Below are positions 7,776 to 11,844 of a stretch of 64,000 nt of DNA, one piece after another; the stretch's first letter is position 1, and every line of letters starts with the position of its first letter. The translations under genes were made by a program, and so were the position numbers. The notes below the pieces were generated by a model. The model did not search any database, had not been told where the DNA came from, and saw nothing but the letters and a program-made list of their open reading frames with translations. The DNA is from Variovorax sp. MHTC-1 (lineage in GTDB: Bacteria; Pseudomonadota; Gammaproteobacteria; Burkholderiales; Burkholderiaceae_C). The stretch is from positions 186,001 through 250,000 of the forward strand of contig NZ_RWKI01000005.1 in the NCBI RefSeq assembly GCF_003984645.1. The letters run 5' to 3'.

Positions 7776-10175
7776 ATGTCCAGATTTCAAGTGAAGAAGG
7801 TCGCCGTGCTCGGCGCCGGCGTGATGGGCGCGCAGATCGCGGCCCACCTCGTCAATGTGCGCGTGCCGGTGGTGCTGTTCGACCTGCCCGCAAAAGAGGG
7901 CTCGAAGAACGGCATCGTGAGCCGCGCCATCGACAACCTCAAGAAGCAGAAGCCTGCGCCGCTCGGCGACGCGGCCGACGCCGTGCTCATCGAGCAGGCC
8001 AACTACGAAGACGATCTGGCCAAGCTCGACGAGTGCGACCTGGTGATCGAAGCGATTGCCGAGCGCATGGACTGGAAGCTCGATCTGTACAGGAAGATCG
8101 CGCCGCATGTCGCGAAGCATGCCATCCTGGCCTCGAACACCTCTGGCCTGTCGATCACCAAGCTCAGCGAGGCGCTGCCCGAGGCGCTGAAGCCGCGCTT
8201 CTGCGGCATCCACTTCTTCAACCCGCCGCGCTACATGTTCCTGGTCGAGCTGATCGATACGCCGACTACCGAGCCCGAGGTGCTGGACCAGCTCGAAGCC
8301 TTCGTCACCAGCACGCTCGGCAAGGGCGTGGTGCGCGCGCACGACACGCCCAACTTCATCGCCAACCGCGTCGGCATCGCCGGCATGCTGGCGACCCTGA
8401 AGGAAGTCGAGAAGTTCGGCCTTACGCCCGATGTGGTGGACGACCTCACCGGCAAGAAGCTGGGCCGCGCAAGCTCGGGCACCTTCCGCACCGCGGATGT
8501 GGTGGGCCTGGACACCATGGCCCACGTGGTCAAGACGCTGCAGGACAACCTGAGCGCGGAAACCGATCCCTTCTACGCCAACTTCGCGACGCCGCCCGTG
8601 CTCGCCAAGCTGCTGGAGCTCGGCCACCTGGGCCAGAAGACCAAGGCCGGCTTCTACAAGAAGTCCGGCCGCGACATCTTGCGCTTCGATCTGGCCAAGA
8701 GCGAGTACGTGCCCTCGGGCGACAAGGCCGACGAGGTCTACGGCCGCATGCTCAAGAAGCCCGCGCCGGAGCGCCTGAAGCTGCTGCGCGAGAGCGAAGG
8801 CGCGCAGGGCCGCTTCCTCTGGGCCATCCTGCGCGACAGCTTCCACTACGCGGCCGTGCACCTCGAAACCATCGCCGAGAGCGCACGCGACGTCGACTTC
8901 GCGATGCGCTGGGGCTTCGGCATGAAGCAGGGCCCCTTCGAGCTCTGGCAGGAAGCCGGCTGGGCGCAGATCGCCAAGTGGATCCAGGAAGACATCGATG
9001 CCGGCGAAGCGCTCTCCACGGCGCCGCTGCCGACGTGGGTGTTCGAAGGCCCGGTTGCAGAAGCCGGCGGCGTGCACACGCCCGAGGGCTCGTGGAGCGC
9101 TTCGCAGAGCAAGTTCGTCCCGCCACGCCACCTGCCCGTGCATGAACGCCAGCTGTTCCCCGAGAGCGTGCTGGGCAGCCATGCGCCGGATGCGAACAAG
9201 GCCGGCACCACGATCCAGGACGAAGGCGACGTGCGCCTCTGGACGCTGGACGGCGAGGTGCTGATCGCGAGCATCCATTCGAAGATGCACGCCATCAGCC
9301 CCGACGTGGCCGATGCGCTGGCGGCCGGCGTCGATCTGGCCGAGCGCGAATACAAGGCGATGGTGATCTGGTCCCCCGACGAGATGTTTTCGGTCGGCGC
9401 CGATTTGCAGGCGATGCTGCCGGCCTTCGTGGTCGCCGGCATCGGTGCGGTCGAAGGTGCGGAAGAAGAGCTGCAGAACGTGATGCTCAAGATCCGCTAT
9501 GCCGGCGTGCCGGTGGTCTCTGCCGTGCGCGGCATGGCGCTGGGCGGCGGCTGCGAGCTGGCCATCCATTCGGCCAGGCGCGTCGCGGCGATGGAAAGCT
9601 ATATCGGCCTGGTCGAAGTCGGCGTCGGCCTAGTGCCCGGCGCCGGCGGCTTGACCTATATCGCGCGCCGGGCGGCCGAGAACGCCGAAGCCTCCACCGG
9701 CACCGACCTGCTGCCCTTCCTGACCGAAGGCTTCACCGCCGCGGCCATGGCCAAGGTCGGCACCAGCGCGCTGGAATCGAAGAAGCTGGGCTACCTGCTC
9801 GACAGCGACGTGATCGTGCCGAACAAGGACGAGCTGCTCTACGTCGCGCTGCAGCAGGCCAAGGCCATGGCCGACGCCGGCTGGCGAGCGCCGCTGCGTC
9901 GCCGGTTCAGAGTCGCTGGCCGCAGCGGCGCAGCGACGATCAAGGGGCAGCTGGTCAACATGCGAGACGGCGGCTTCATCAGCGAGCACGACTTCCACAT
10001 CGCCGGCCTGATCGCGGGCGTGGTGACGGGCGGCGACGTCGATGCCGGCAGCCTGGTCACGGAGGAATACCTGATGGCGCTGGAGCGCAAGGCCTTCTGT
10101 TCGCTGATCCTGCATCCGAAGACGCAGGAGCGGATCATGGGGATGTTGAGTACGGGCAAGCCGCTACGCAACTGA
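7776..10175 (+). CDS. 3-hydroxyacyl-CoA dehydrogenase/enoyl-CoA hydratase fusion
   Basis: A 799-residue bifunctional beta-oxidation enzyme. The N-terminal half is the NAD-dependent 3-hydroxyacyl-CoA dehydrogenase (GAGVMGAQIAAHLVN near 13, then HFFNPPRYMFLVELI near 148); the C-terminal half, from about 480, is an enoyl-CoA hydratase/crotonase fold (GMALGGGCELAIHSARR, then ESYIGLVEVGVGLVPGAGG with acidic catalytic residues). This order is the reverse of classical FadB. It lies between DUF2147 and a thiolase, separated from the thiolase by a DUF559 cassette. It would hydrate enoyl-CoA and oxidise the 3-hydroxyacyl-CoA with NAD+. Confidence 0.93.
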   Translation: MSRFQVKKVAVLGAGVMGAQIAAHLVNVRVPVVLFDLPAKEGSKNGIVSRAIDNLKKQKPAPLGDAADAVLIEQANYEDDLAKLDECDLVIEAIAERMDWKLDLYRKIAPHVAKHAILASNTSGLSITKLSEALPEALKPRFCGIHFFNPPRYMFLVELIDTPTTEPEVLDQLEAFVTSTLGKGVVRAHDTPNFIANRVGIAGMLATLKEVEKFGLTPDVVDDLTGKKLGRASSGTFRTADVVGLDTMAHVVKTLQDNLSAETDPFYANFATPPVLAKLLELGHLGQKTKAGFYKKSGRDILRFDLAKSEYVPSGDKADEVYGRMLKKPAPERLKLLRESEGAQGRFLWAILRDSFHYAAVHLETIAESARDVDFAMRWGFGMKQGPFELWQEAGWAQIAKWIQEDIDAGEALSTAPLPTWVFEGPVAEAGGVHTPEGSWSASQSKFVPPRHLPVHERQLFPESVLGSHAPDANKAGTTIQDEGDVRLWTLDGEVLIASIHSKMHAISPDVADALAAGVDLAEREYKAMVIWSPDEMFSVGADLQAMLPAFVVAGIGAVEGAEEELQNVMLKIRYAGVPVVSAVRGMALGGGCELAIHSARRVAAMESYIGLVEVGVGLVPGAGGLTYIARRAAENAEASTGTDLLPFLTEGFTAAAMAKVGTSALESKKLGYLLDSDVIVPNKDELLYVALQQAKAMADAGWRAPLRRRFRVAGRSGAATIKGQLVNMRDGGFISEHDFHIAGLIAGVVTGGDVDAGSLVTEEYLMALERKAFCSLILHPKTQERIMGMLSTGKPLRN

Positions 10176-10188
10176 CGCACTGCCTTCC

Positions 10189-10223
10189 TCCTTCCCCCTC
10201 CGGGGGAAGGCCGGGATGGGGGC
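10189..10223. repeat. left 35-bp inverted repeat of DUF559 cassette
   Basis: This 35-bp segment matches the reverse complement of 10588-10622 at 33 of 35 positions. It contains an internal hairpin (CCTTCCCC paired with GGGGAAGG). Similarity stops abruptly at both ends. It starts 13 bp after the stop of the dehydrogenase/hydratase gene. Confidence 0.85.
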
Positions 10224-10230
10224 ACGCACC

Positions 10231-10626
10231 ATGCGAAACCAGTCCACAACCACAGCGCAGAAGAACGCCCGCACCCTGCGGCGCGAAATGACCGATTCCG
10301 AGCGCAAGCTCTGGTCCGGCCTGCGCATGGAACAGCTGGGCGTGAAGTTCCGTCGTCAACATCCTTTGGGCCACTACATCGCGGACTTCGCCTGCCTCGA
10401 ACCGAAACTGATCGTCGAGCTCGATGGATCGCAGCATCTCGCGCAGGAAGACTACGACGCGCGGCGCGACGCCTTCTTTCGCAACCAGGGCTTCGACGTG
10501 ATGCGCTTCGCGTCGAACGCTCCGTTCATTCAATTCGATGGGGTGCTGCAGGCAATTGCGAACCGGCTGCACGAGCTAACGCTGGCTGCCCCCATCCCTG
10601 CCTTCCCCCAGAGGGGGAAGGAGTAA
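10231..10626 (+). CDS. DUF559 (Vsr-like endonuclease fold) protein
   Basis: A 131-residue DUF559 protein, a family with the very-short-patch-repair-like PD-(D/E)XK nuclease fold. Visible features are LRREMTDSERKLWSGLR near the start, KFRRQHPLGHYIADFAC, LIVELDGSQH with acidic metal-binding residues, and FFRNQGFDVMRF. An in-frame ATG at 10216 lies inside the left repeat; 10231 is the likelier start. The last residues (APIPAFPQRGKE) are encoded by the right inverted repeat. The gene sits between two beta-oxidation genes with which it has no obvious link, so it looks inserted. Its cellular role is unknown. Confidence 0.85.
   Translation: MRNQSTTTAQKNARTLRREMTDSERKLWSGLRMEQLGVKFRRQHPLGHYIADFACLEPKLIVELDGSQHLAQEDYDARRDAFFRNQGFDVMRFASNAPFIQFDGVLQAIANRLHELTLAAPIPAFPQRGKE
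10588..10622. repeat. right 35-bp inverted repeat of DUF559 cassette
   Basis: Mirror copy of 10189-10223 (33 of 35 identical as reverse complement). It forms the 3' end of the DUF559 reading frame, the stop codon following at 10624-10626. The ribosome site of the thiolase (AGAAGGAG) begins 10 bp further on. Confidence 0.85.
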
Positions 10627-10647: not shown

Positions 10648-11844
10648 ATGAAGCAAATCCAAGACGCCTACATCGTCTCCGCCACCCGCACCCCCATCGG
10701 CCGCTCGCACCGCGGCTTCTTCCGCAATACGCGCCCCGACGACCTGCTCGCGACCACGCTGAAGGCGGCGCTCGCGGCGGTGCCGGGGCTCGATCCGAAG
10801 GCGATCGAGGACATCATCTGCGGCTGCGCGATACCCGAGGCGCAGCAGGGCCTCAACGTCGCGCGCATCGGCGCCGTGCTCGCTGGCCTGCCGACCAGCA
10901 TCGGCGGCATCACGGTCAACCGCTTCTGCGCATCCGGCCTGTCGGCGGTGCAGATGGCGGCCGACCGCATCCGCGTCGGCGAGGCCGAGGTGATGATCGC
11001 GGCCGGCGTCGAGAGCATGAGCATGGTGCCGATGATGGGCAATTCGCCTTCGCTGTCGCCATCGATTTTCGAGCGCGACGGCGATGTCGGCATCGCCTAC
11101 GGCATGGGCCTGACGGCCGAGAAGGTGGCGCAGCAGTGGAAGGTGAGCCGCGAGGCGCAGGATGCCTTCGCGCTGCAGTCGCACCAGCGCGCCCTCGCCG
11201 CGCAGCAGGCCGGCGAGTTCGCGAGCGAGATCACGCCCATCGAGGTGACGGACCGCGCGCCGAACCTCGAGACCGGCGAGGCGATTGCCAAGACCCGCAC
11301 CGTGAACCTCGACGAAGGCGCGCGCCCGGACACCAGCCTCGAAGGCCTGGCGAAGCTGCGCACGGTGTTCGCCGCGCGCGGCTCGGTCACCGCGGGCAAC
11401 AGCTCGCAGACCTCCGACGGCGCGGGCGCGCTGATCCTCGCGAGCGAGAAGGCCTGCAAGCAGTTCGATCTGAAGCCGCTCGCGCGCTTCGTGAGCTTCG
11501 CGAGCAAGGGCGTGCCGCCGCACATCATGGGCATCGGCCCGATCGAGGCGATTCCGGCGGCGCTGCGCTACGCGGGGCTCACGCAGGATGCGATCGACTG
11601 GATCGAGCTCAACGAAGCTTTCGCCGCGCAGTCGCTGGCGGTGATCAACACGCTGGGACTCGATCCGGCCAAGGTCAACCCGATGGGCGGCGCGATCGCG
11701 CTGGGCCATCCTCTGGGCGCGACCGGTGCCATCCGCTCGGCGACCGTGATCCATGCGCTGCAGCGCAAGAAGCTCAAGTACGGCATGGTCACGATGTGCG
11801 TGGGCATGGGGCAGGGCGCCGCCGGCATCTTCGAGCGGGTCTGA
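10648..11844 (+). CDS. acetyl-CoA C-acyltransferase (thiolase)
   Basis: A 398-residue type II thiolase that would cleave 3-ketoacyl-CoA with CoA. The acylated cysteine lies in [17 protein letters not shown] near residue 94; the C-terminal GGAIALGHPLGATGAI and MCVGMGQGAAGIFE carry the catalytic His and Cys. The start has a strong upstream AGAAGGAG. It completes the beta-oxidation set formed with the acyl-CoA dehydrogenase and the dehydrogenase/hydratase fusion upstream, although the DUF559 cassette lies in between. Confidence 0.94.
   Translation: MKQIQDAYIVSATRTPIGRSHRGFFRNTRPDDLLATTLKAALAAVPGLDPKAIEDIICGCAIPEAQQGLNVARIGAVLAGLPTSIGGITVNRFCASGLSAVQMAADRIRVGEAEVMIAAGVESMSMVPMMGNSPSLSPSIFERDGDVGIAYGMGLTAEKVAQQWKVSREAQDAFALQSHQRALAAQQAGEFASEITPIEVTDRAPNLETGEAIAKTRTVNLDEGARPDTSLEGLAKLRTVFAARGSVTAGNSSQTSDGAGALILASEKACKQFDLKPLARFVSFASKGVPPHIMGIGPIEAIPAALRYAGLTQDAIDWIELNEAFAAQSLAVINTLGLDPAKVNPMGGAIALGHPLGATGAIRSATVIHALQRKKLKYGMVTMCVGMGQGAAGIFERV

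Follow-up and report, generated by a model that had tools for sequence, protein, structure and literature searches.

The DUF559 gene that sits between a fadB-like gene and a thiolase gene in Variovorax sp. MHTC-1 is framed by two inverted hairpin repeats, and we regard the resulting cassette, with moderate confidence, as the gene-bearing and presumably mobile member of a REPIN-RAYT-like repeat system driven by the Vsr-fold DUF559 nuclease. The observations comprise the anatomy of the cassette, the near-universal adjacency of DUF559 genes and hairpins, their co-occurrence within families, a covariation between the tail and the arm of the repeats and purifying selection on the gene. They also include the absence of the cassette from the same site in relatives, one duplication of a cassette as a bounded unit and cassettes lying in frame within other genes. 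The nuclease is probably what spreads the hairpin repeats, a movement that we infer from this close association.

The repeats and the protein family were already known; what is new is the DUF559-repeat link, together with the tail-arm covariation seen in different genera and the anatomy of the cassette, and no link of DUF559, COG2852, PF04480 or ycjD to TM/PIT repeats was found in the open-access PubMed Central literature. An earlier interpretation of this DNA (hereafter the sequence-only reading) had overlooked both the membership of the repeat in a known family of triplex formers and the generality of its association with DUF559. Its suggestion of a nuclease-linked element fits the data better than a transposase does.

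Anatomy of the cassette, its repeats and its protein

Throughout, the window denotes the whole stretch of DNA analysed (64 kb). As the sequence-only reading had recognised, the DUF559 gene splits a dehydrogenase/hydratase gene from its thiolase (Table 1). The inverted repeats it had described were recovered (10190-10224 and 10587-10621, identical at 33 of 35 positions), and a repeat search extended them to 40 nt at 93% (10185-10224 and 10587-10626). The sharp edges it had claimed are slightly less so on the outer side, where four of the next five bases pair before the match is lost. Each arm consists of a hairpin, CCTTCCCCC-NNN-GGGGGAAGG, and a purine-rich tail directed toward the gene. With up to three mismatches, the hairpin pattern occurs at two places in the window, both of them cassette arms, and shuffled sequence yields on average 0.01 matches, which rules out a chance origin of the inverted repeat.

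Table 1. Features of the DUF559 cassette and its host genes, in window coordinates
Feature	Position	Strand	Remarks
FadB-like 3-hydroxyacyl-CoA dehydrogenase / enoyl-CoA hydratase, left host gene	7776..10175	+	
Complete cassette (DUF559 gene with both repeats)	10185..10626	+	442 bp
Left hairpin, CCTTCCCCC-TCC-GGGGGAAGG	10190..10210	+	
Left purine-rich tail, CCGGGATGGGGGCA	10211..10224	+	Mirrors the purine arm except for one A -> T; gene-facing
DUF559 (PF04480) gene, putative Vsr-like/PD-(D/E)XK nuclease	10231..10626	+	Alternative ATG at 10216, within the left repeat
Right tail	10587..10600	-	Gene-facing; doubles as coding sequence (APIPA)
Right hairpin	10601..10621	-	Plus strand reads CCTTCCCCC-AGA-GGGGGAAGG; doubles as coding sequence (FPQRGK)
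Acetyl-CoA acyltransferase (thiolase), right host gene	10648..11844	+	

The right repeat encodes the C-terminus of the protein (...APIPAFPQRGKE), as proposed earlier, and its arm stops just short of the TAA codon. On the other side, the earliest possible ATG falls within the left repeat, and the alignment of homologues suggests that the true start is the one at 10231. C-terminal tails of a similar kind, which the sequence-only reading had ascribed to other DUF559 proteins, were found in 44 of 89 homologous loci (one of a set of 90 was unusable), where the reading frame enters or passes the 3' hairpin, with endings such as ...TPLPEGEGL and ...PNPLPGGERA. These data support the view that repeat and gene form a single unit.

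The architecture published for the TM (earlier PIT) motif in PMC4666352 is CCCTCTCCC-loop-GGGAGAGGG-NN-GGGGTGAGGG, exemplified by CCCTCTCCCTGTGGGAGAGGGCCGGGGTGAGGGC, with 23 copies in E. coli MG1655 and inverted pairs at five sites; the E. coli motif is described there as forming a triplex in vitro and no stable triplex in vivo. Judging by sequence architecture, the cassette repeats are members of this intrastrand-triplex family: they combine a pyrimidine/purine hairpin with a purine tail mirroring the purine arm, are present in many copies and frequently occur as inverted pairs. The mirror departs from perfection by one A -> T change, as an intramolecular purine triplex would require.

Two positions can be either A or G, in the arm as well as in the tail, and there arm and tail change together, in 29/31 and 31/31 motifs of the own genome, 126/127 and 127/127 motifs of the genus loci, and 61/62 and 62/62 motifs of the 90 phylum loci and 11 named loci described below, counts that are not independent events since motifs of one genome share descent. 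The search pattern prescribed no base at either position and accepted only tails 1-4 nt from the stem; four E. coli motifs are invariant at these positions and hence uninformative on covariation. A cruder mirror score, computed for 582 hairpins on both strands, exceeded that of shuffled tails by only a little (0.667 vs 0.623, the highest shuffle giving 0.630).

Repeat-only copies of the MITE/REPIN-like kind, for which the sequence-only reading had suggested a search, do exist: the own genome holds 32 hairpins with at most two mismatches, including the two of the cassette, and none of the reversed control pattern. Paired hairpins were present in 14 of 20 further stretches fetched from this genome, with tails facing inward in 12 and outward in two (L076 and L085), and with distances between hairpin starts of 66 to 166 bp, L083 (811 bp) and L086 (821 bp) excepted. 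This paired arrangement is REPIN-like, and the cassette resembles such a dimer whose spacer contains a gene. The two long exceptions (L083, C72:28850-29681; L086, C93:55167-56008) are foldback elements of about 850 bp, 91% identical to each other; each is bounded on either side by triplex-motif hairpins, and the interior consists of long nested inverted repeats in which no gene is obvious.

The gene was assigned to DUF559 by profile search (PF04480, E 1.9e-37, 127.9 bits vs a cut-off of 20.6). In the structure predicted for its product (pLDDT 89), the protein adopts a fold of the Vsr/PD-(D/E)XK kind, and its acidic residues are conserved; the top structural match is the gonococcal NGO0050 (PDB 3hrl, 43% identical, E 6.5e-8), taken as a DUF559 protein, and the nearest solved fold outside DUF559 is the Vsr-like homing endonuclease I-Bth0305I (PDB 3r3p, Foldseek E 1.1e-3, 14% identity), while Vsr itself (1vsr) is a weak match (E 0.2). 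Among 52 sequences, E23, D51, E62, D64 and D75 do not vary and H68 hardly does (aligned 130-residue numbering); such a set of E, D, H and D would make up a Vsr-like active site. With a median dN/dS of 0.136, vs 0.075 for the thiolase (24 genomes), the DUF559 protein is under purifying selection. The E. coli member YcjD served as a PD-(D/E)XK seed and was assigned to that superfamily, according to PMC1189080. Elsewhere in the own genome, a weak DUF559-like match (21.5 bits) lies within a 1869-aa open frame (L002, C42:58831-59076).

Association of DUF559 genes and hairpins across genomes

The surroundings of DUF559 genes were inspected at 90 loci of the window's phylum (Pseudomonadota), of which 30 were returned by search and 60 hand-picked, one per genome, from the listed places. 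Inverted repeats that span the gene and score at least 15 were found at 56 of the 90 loci vs 2 of 300 control windows displaced within these loci, the other 34 lacking a strong bracketing repeat; the cut-off is also attained by 46 of 450 pairings of arms taken from different loci, since the repeats resemble one another from genome to genome. Pyrimidine/purine hairpins (stem >=7) within 300 bp of the gene occur upstream at 71 loci, downstream at 65, on both sides at 49 and on at least one side at 87, vs 8 of 480 control windows. Bracketing and adjacency at these frequencies rule out a vertically inherited gene unrelated to the repeats. They also bear on the notion that the hairpins are transcription terminators accumulating after any small gene, as such repeats were presumed to be in Enterobacter 638 (PMC2869309). 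We find it scarcely credible, given the upstream hairpins and the rarity in control windows, and given that PIT motifs had neither promoter nor terminator activity in earlier work as summarised in PMC4666352.

Eleven named loci outside this set, drawn from plasmid and E. coli collections, showed a graded picture. Clear inverted repeats surround DUF559 in Azospirillum, S. meliloti (114-bp arms) and Sphingomonas; the Deinococcus locus has hairpins on either side with a 14-bp match, and that of N. gonorrhoeae has clear hairpins downstream and, upstream, no more than a degenerate match. One-sided or partial hairpins were seen in Klebsiella, Shinella, Synechocystis and Methylobacterium, and no convincing ones at the Picosynechococcus and Thermoactinomyces loci. 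In S. meliloti Ak57 the cassette region matches at least 39 places in its record (CP090106.1), parts of the region, probably including the repeat arms, being multi-copy there. Three records, NZ_CP119142.1 (2.17 Mb), CP090106.1 (3.72 Mb) and CP125156.1 (5.37 Mb), are labelled as plasmids and have sizes that suggest chromosomes.

Gene and repeats also occur together at the level of whole genomes. Across 398 genomes of the phylum, three or more hairpins (CCTCTCCC-N2-8-GGGAGAGG) were counted in 86 of 108 genomes with DUF559 (E <=1e-15) vs 17 of 290 without (Fisher p 2e-48). When DUF559 status was permuted within families, of which 17 were mixed, the value of 86 was reached in none of 20,000 trials (mean 65), and after subtraction of two hairpins per DUF559 gene the proportions were 65/108 vs 17/290. 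Exceptions run both ways: 22 of the 108 DUF559 genomes hold fewer than three hairpins, and hairpin-rich genomes without the gene include G436 (147 hairpins), G299 (111) and G279 (110). Y1_Tnp (RAYT/IS200; E <=1e-10), used as a control, had neither a positive link (24/156 vs 79/242) nor a within-family effect, which rules out a RAYT as the hidden partner of the repeats.

One might still see the gene as passive cargo, trapped in an element that an ordinary transposase mobilises in trans, with the co-occurrence a matter of shared ancestry. In its favour, no movement was observed and the E. coli repeats at least look old. We nevertheless hold it to be very improbable: the association survives the family-stratified permutation, hairpins lie on both sides of DUF559 in S. 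meliloti, Azospirillum, Sphingomonas and Deinococcus too, and Y1_Tnp, the sole transposase family compared, shows no positive link.

Within the genus, the median number of type-A hairpins (those of the window's type) is 62 in the 52 genomes that carry the gene and 0 in the 49 that do not, gene-bearing being defined by a PF04480 match with E <1e-20 and 13 genomes with weaker matches only being counted as gene-absent. A fadB-thiolase tree taking in 89 of the 101 genomes shows 17 changes of gene state and only nine supported independent contrasts; on average 4.6 of these go in the expected direction, none in the opposite one and 4.4 show no difference (median p 0.0625). Some genomes without DUF559 are rich in hairpins (G136 with 115 and G072 with 51).

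E. coli offers a further view of the pair, YcjD being a DUF559 protein. A relative-derived query matches 3,364 of 5,426 E. coli genomes, all 30 among the matches listed are annotated ycjD, and the fabI-ycjD-sapF stretch is found at >=80% in 3,333 genomes. One exception that was fetched, EC21GDE043 (L293), has a TetR regulator and an efflux operon after fabI, replacing ycjD. In MG1655, a degenerate hairpin overlaps the 3' end of ycjD (1351407-1351760), and TM number 9 of the list in PMC4666352 lies about 170 bp past it; no TM is present on the 5' side. Alleles of E. coli TM sites are shortened between paired hairpins (07_3986) or lack the motifs (E1739, 83972), and the TM-free hrpB-mrcB and lldD-trmL alleles differ in their flanks too, with no readable insertion boundary or target duplication. 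The listed counts show no visible difference in TM number with ycjD presence within E. coli, in a comparison that was not designed for the purpose.

The fadB-thiolase junction and cassettes elsewhere

The DUF559 gene occupies the fadB-thiolase junction in all 52 gene-bearing genomes of the 101 in the genus (45 placed by sequence and seven, G102, G104, G112, G114, G116, G123 and G129, by coordinates), with one strong match (<1e-20) per genome. The gene is thus not freely hopping in the genus now, and a freshly hopping cassette finds no support there. Empty sites, which the sequence-only reading had proposed to look for, are nonetheless common among relatives: the two host genes are separated by at most 43 bp in 35 of 45 gene-lacking genomes. 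The remaining junctions comprise seven with 117-136 bp of other sequence, one with a single type-B hairpin (L161), one with a truncated cassette (L149) and one that is unreadable (L170). This analysis covered 45 of the 49 gene-absent genomes, four having no thiolase match and G021 being represented by one of two thiolase places; the 54 loci fetched came from these 45 and from nine gene-bearing genomes. The outcome named beforehand as speaking against a mobile unit, namely one locus and vertical descent in all relatives with neither empty sites nor repeat-only copies, was thus found in part: the junction is the same in 52 of 52, and relatives without the cassette as well as repeat-only copies exist.

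The other sequence found in the same gap (CCCCCTTGCAGGGGGCAACACC...GCGGTGTT, about 120-135 bp; L126, L131, L144, L159, L160, L164 and L168) is in large part alike among most of its cassette-free carriers, to which the close relative G113 belongs. In G013, one of the nearest relatives (thiolase 95% identical), the cassette is absent, and the junction joins directly to the sequence that follows the right arm; 16 bp that precede the left hairpin have gone as well, which fits ancestral absence and deletion alike.

The junction gene comes in two allelic forms, type A (that of the window) and type B, whose proteins are 44-51% identical in the genomes compared and whose hairpins differ, that of type B being CCCTCTCCCGC-NN-GCGGGAGAGGG. 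Their presence at one site in different species suggests either replacement or a preferred site. Distances for the gene and the thiolase correlate weakly (24 genomes, Mantel r 0.35, a value equalled or exceeded in 50 of 5,000 permutations), which indicates some vertical signal for DUF559, and by inspection the two trees group the species differently.

Away from this junction, genome G334 contains two cassettes about 5.7 kb apart (L312 and L313), 86% identical over 595 bp, and the similarity stops at the repeat arms, the cassette having been duplicated as a bounded unit. No target-site duplication is visible at these two loci or at the junction in the window and, DUF559 being the sole gene, the cassette contains no DDE or other known transposase, these being the two hallmarks of an insertion sequence or its MITE derivatives. 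Others lie in frame within host genes: inside an asparagine synthase (asnB), whose amidotransferase domain is split (L200), inside an HsdM methylase (hsdM, L203), and in CbiG where the middle domain meets the C-terminal one (L182), L184 carrying the same DUF559-CbiG_C fusion. A further CbiG cassette (L181) was read by eye only. In five genomes with several DUF559 genes the copies are divergent (35-66% identical) except for the 90% pair of G334; the repeat variants partly differ, and the best match of a gene's arm is the other arm of its own pair in only 12 of 20 cases.

A gene that homes would also account for part of this picture: DUF559 would cut repeat dimers or intergenic sites and be copied in, the repeats being landing pads spread by other means. 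In its favour are the nearest non-DUF559 fold, the existence of the site without the cassette in relatives, and the position of the gene, which has an inward-facing repeat on each side and so resembles a dimer's spacer. I-Bth0305I is likewise a nuclease gene where relatives have none, but the DUF559 cassette comes without intron or intein and is framed by multi-copy repeats, and the low identity noted above separates the proteins. Homing is at odds with the single strong match in each of 52 genomes, the majority of them with dozens of hairpins, and leaves the scarcity of repeats in the absence of DUF559 unexplained; we judge it rather improbable.

Possible mechanism, known systems and significance

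Under the preferred reading, that of a repeat system driven by the nuclease, DUF559 would recognise the hairpin-plus-tail repeat, most likely in single-stranded or extruded form, and would nick or cut at the repeats, at their targets or at both, during replication or repair. Repair might then copy short repeat dimers into new places, the products being gene-free dimers of about 90-120 bp. In the genus, the gene would be kept as a single resident copy while the repeats populate the genome.

The main rival, which we consider unlikely, makes DUF559 a caretaker that processes repeat hairpins or triplexes during replication or repair and spreads nothing, the repeats at its own gene serving autoregulation. 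The same co-occurrence would be expected, as repeat-full genomes would keep DUF559. Caulobacter VsrA (CCNA_02930) is a DUF559 protein whose phenotype in vivo concerns DNA damage: according to PMC12907096, DNA damage induces it and a methylase mutant requires it for its SOS response, and it is read there as acting in mismatch repair; TM sites, moreover, are tied to instability in E. coli in PMC4666352. A caretaker leaves unexplained why inverted copies bracket the gene with their tails facing it, why a whole cassette was duplicated as a bounded unit and why cassettes lie within host genes.

Several features of a nuclease-driven system recall REPINs and RAYTs: short palindromic, apparently mostly intergenic repeats form inverted dimers and accompany a single-copy resident enzyme gene. 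Repeats are reported to be commoner in E. coli genomes carrying the RAYT enzyme gene (PMC8049555), and RAYT genes to have repeats on their flanks (PMC3733652). In the genus, DUF559 is likewise single-copy and its presence tracks that of the repeats; in other families there are several copies per genome. The enzyme differs, being of the Vsr/PD-(D/E)XK fold by prediction, as does the repeat, whose tail mirrors the stem; by eye, no GTAG tag stands directly at the stem ends of the own-genome repeats, and the flanked gene is DUF559, not a Y1 tyrosine (HUH) transposase. CGTC-tagged REPs, described in PMC3733652, are also dispersed palindromes without a known transposase, mostly in head-to-head dimers, but their stem and tag are unlike those of the cassette repeats, and the different stem rules them out as the identity of this family.

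TM/PIT repeats are on record in E. coli and in over 260 genomes. The 2015 survey (PMC4666352) reports no mobility activity at the E. coli sites and no mobility gene, transposase or integrase remnants near them. The present analysis names a candidate partner for them in ycjD, which sits unexplained beside one TM in E. coli K-12, and it provides a function hypothesis for a widespread DUF as well as an alternative reading of the Caulobacter VsrA phenotype. It also brings the way in which orphan palindromes spread within reach of gene deletion in laboratory strains. If correct, it would reveal a route to dispersed repeats that does not pass through a transposase. More tentatively, and with rather less confidence, DUF559/YcjD proteins may drive a mobile-DNA class of their own, widespread in Bacteria, in which matched nuclease-repeat pairs spread by cut-and-repair copying without transposase, recombinase or intron. 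Such a class would supply the missing mobiliser of TM/PIT repeats and possibly of other orphan palindromes.
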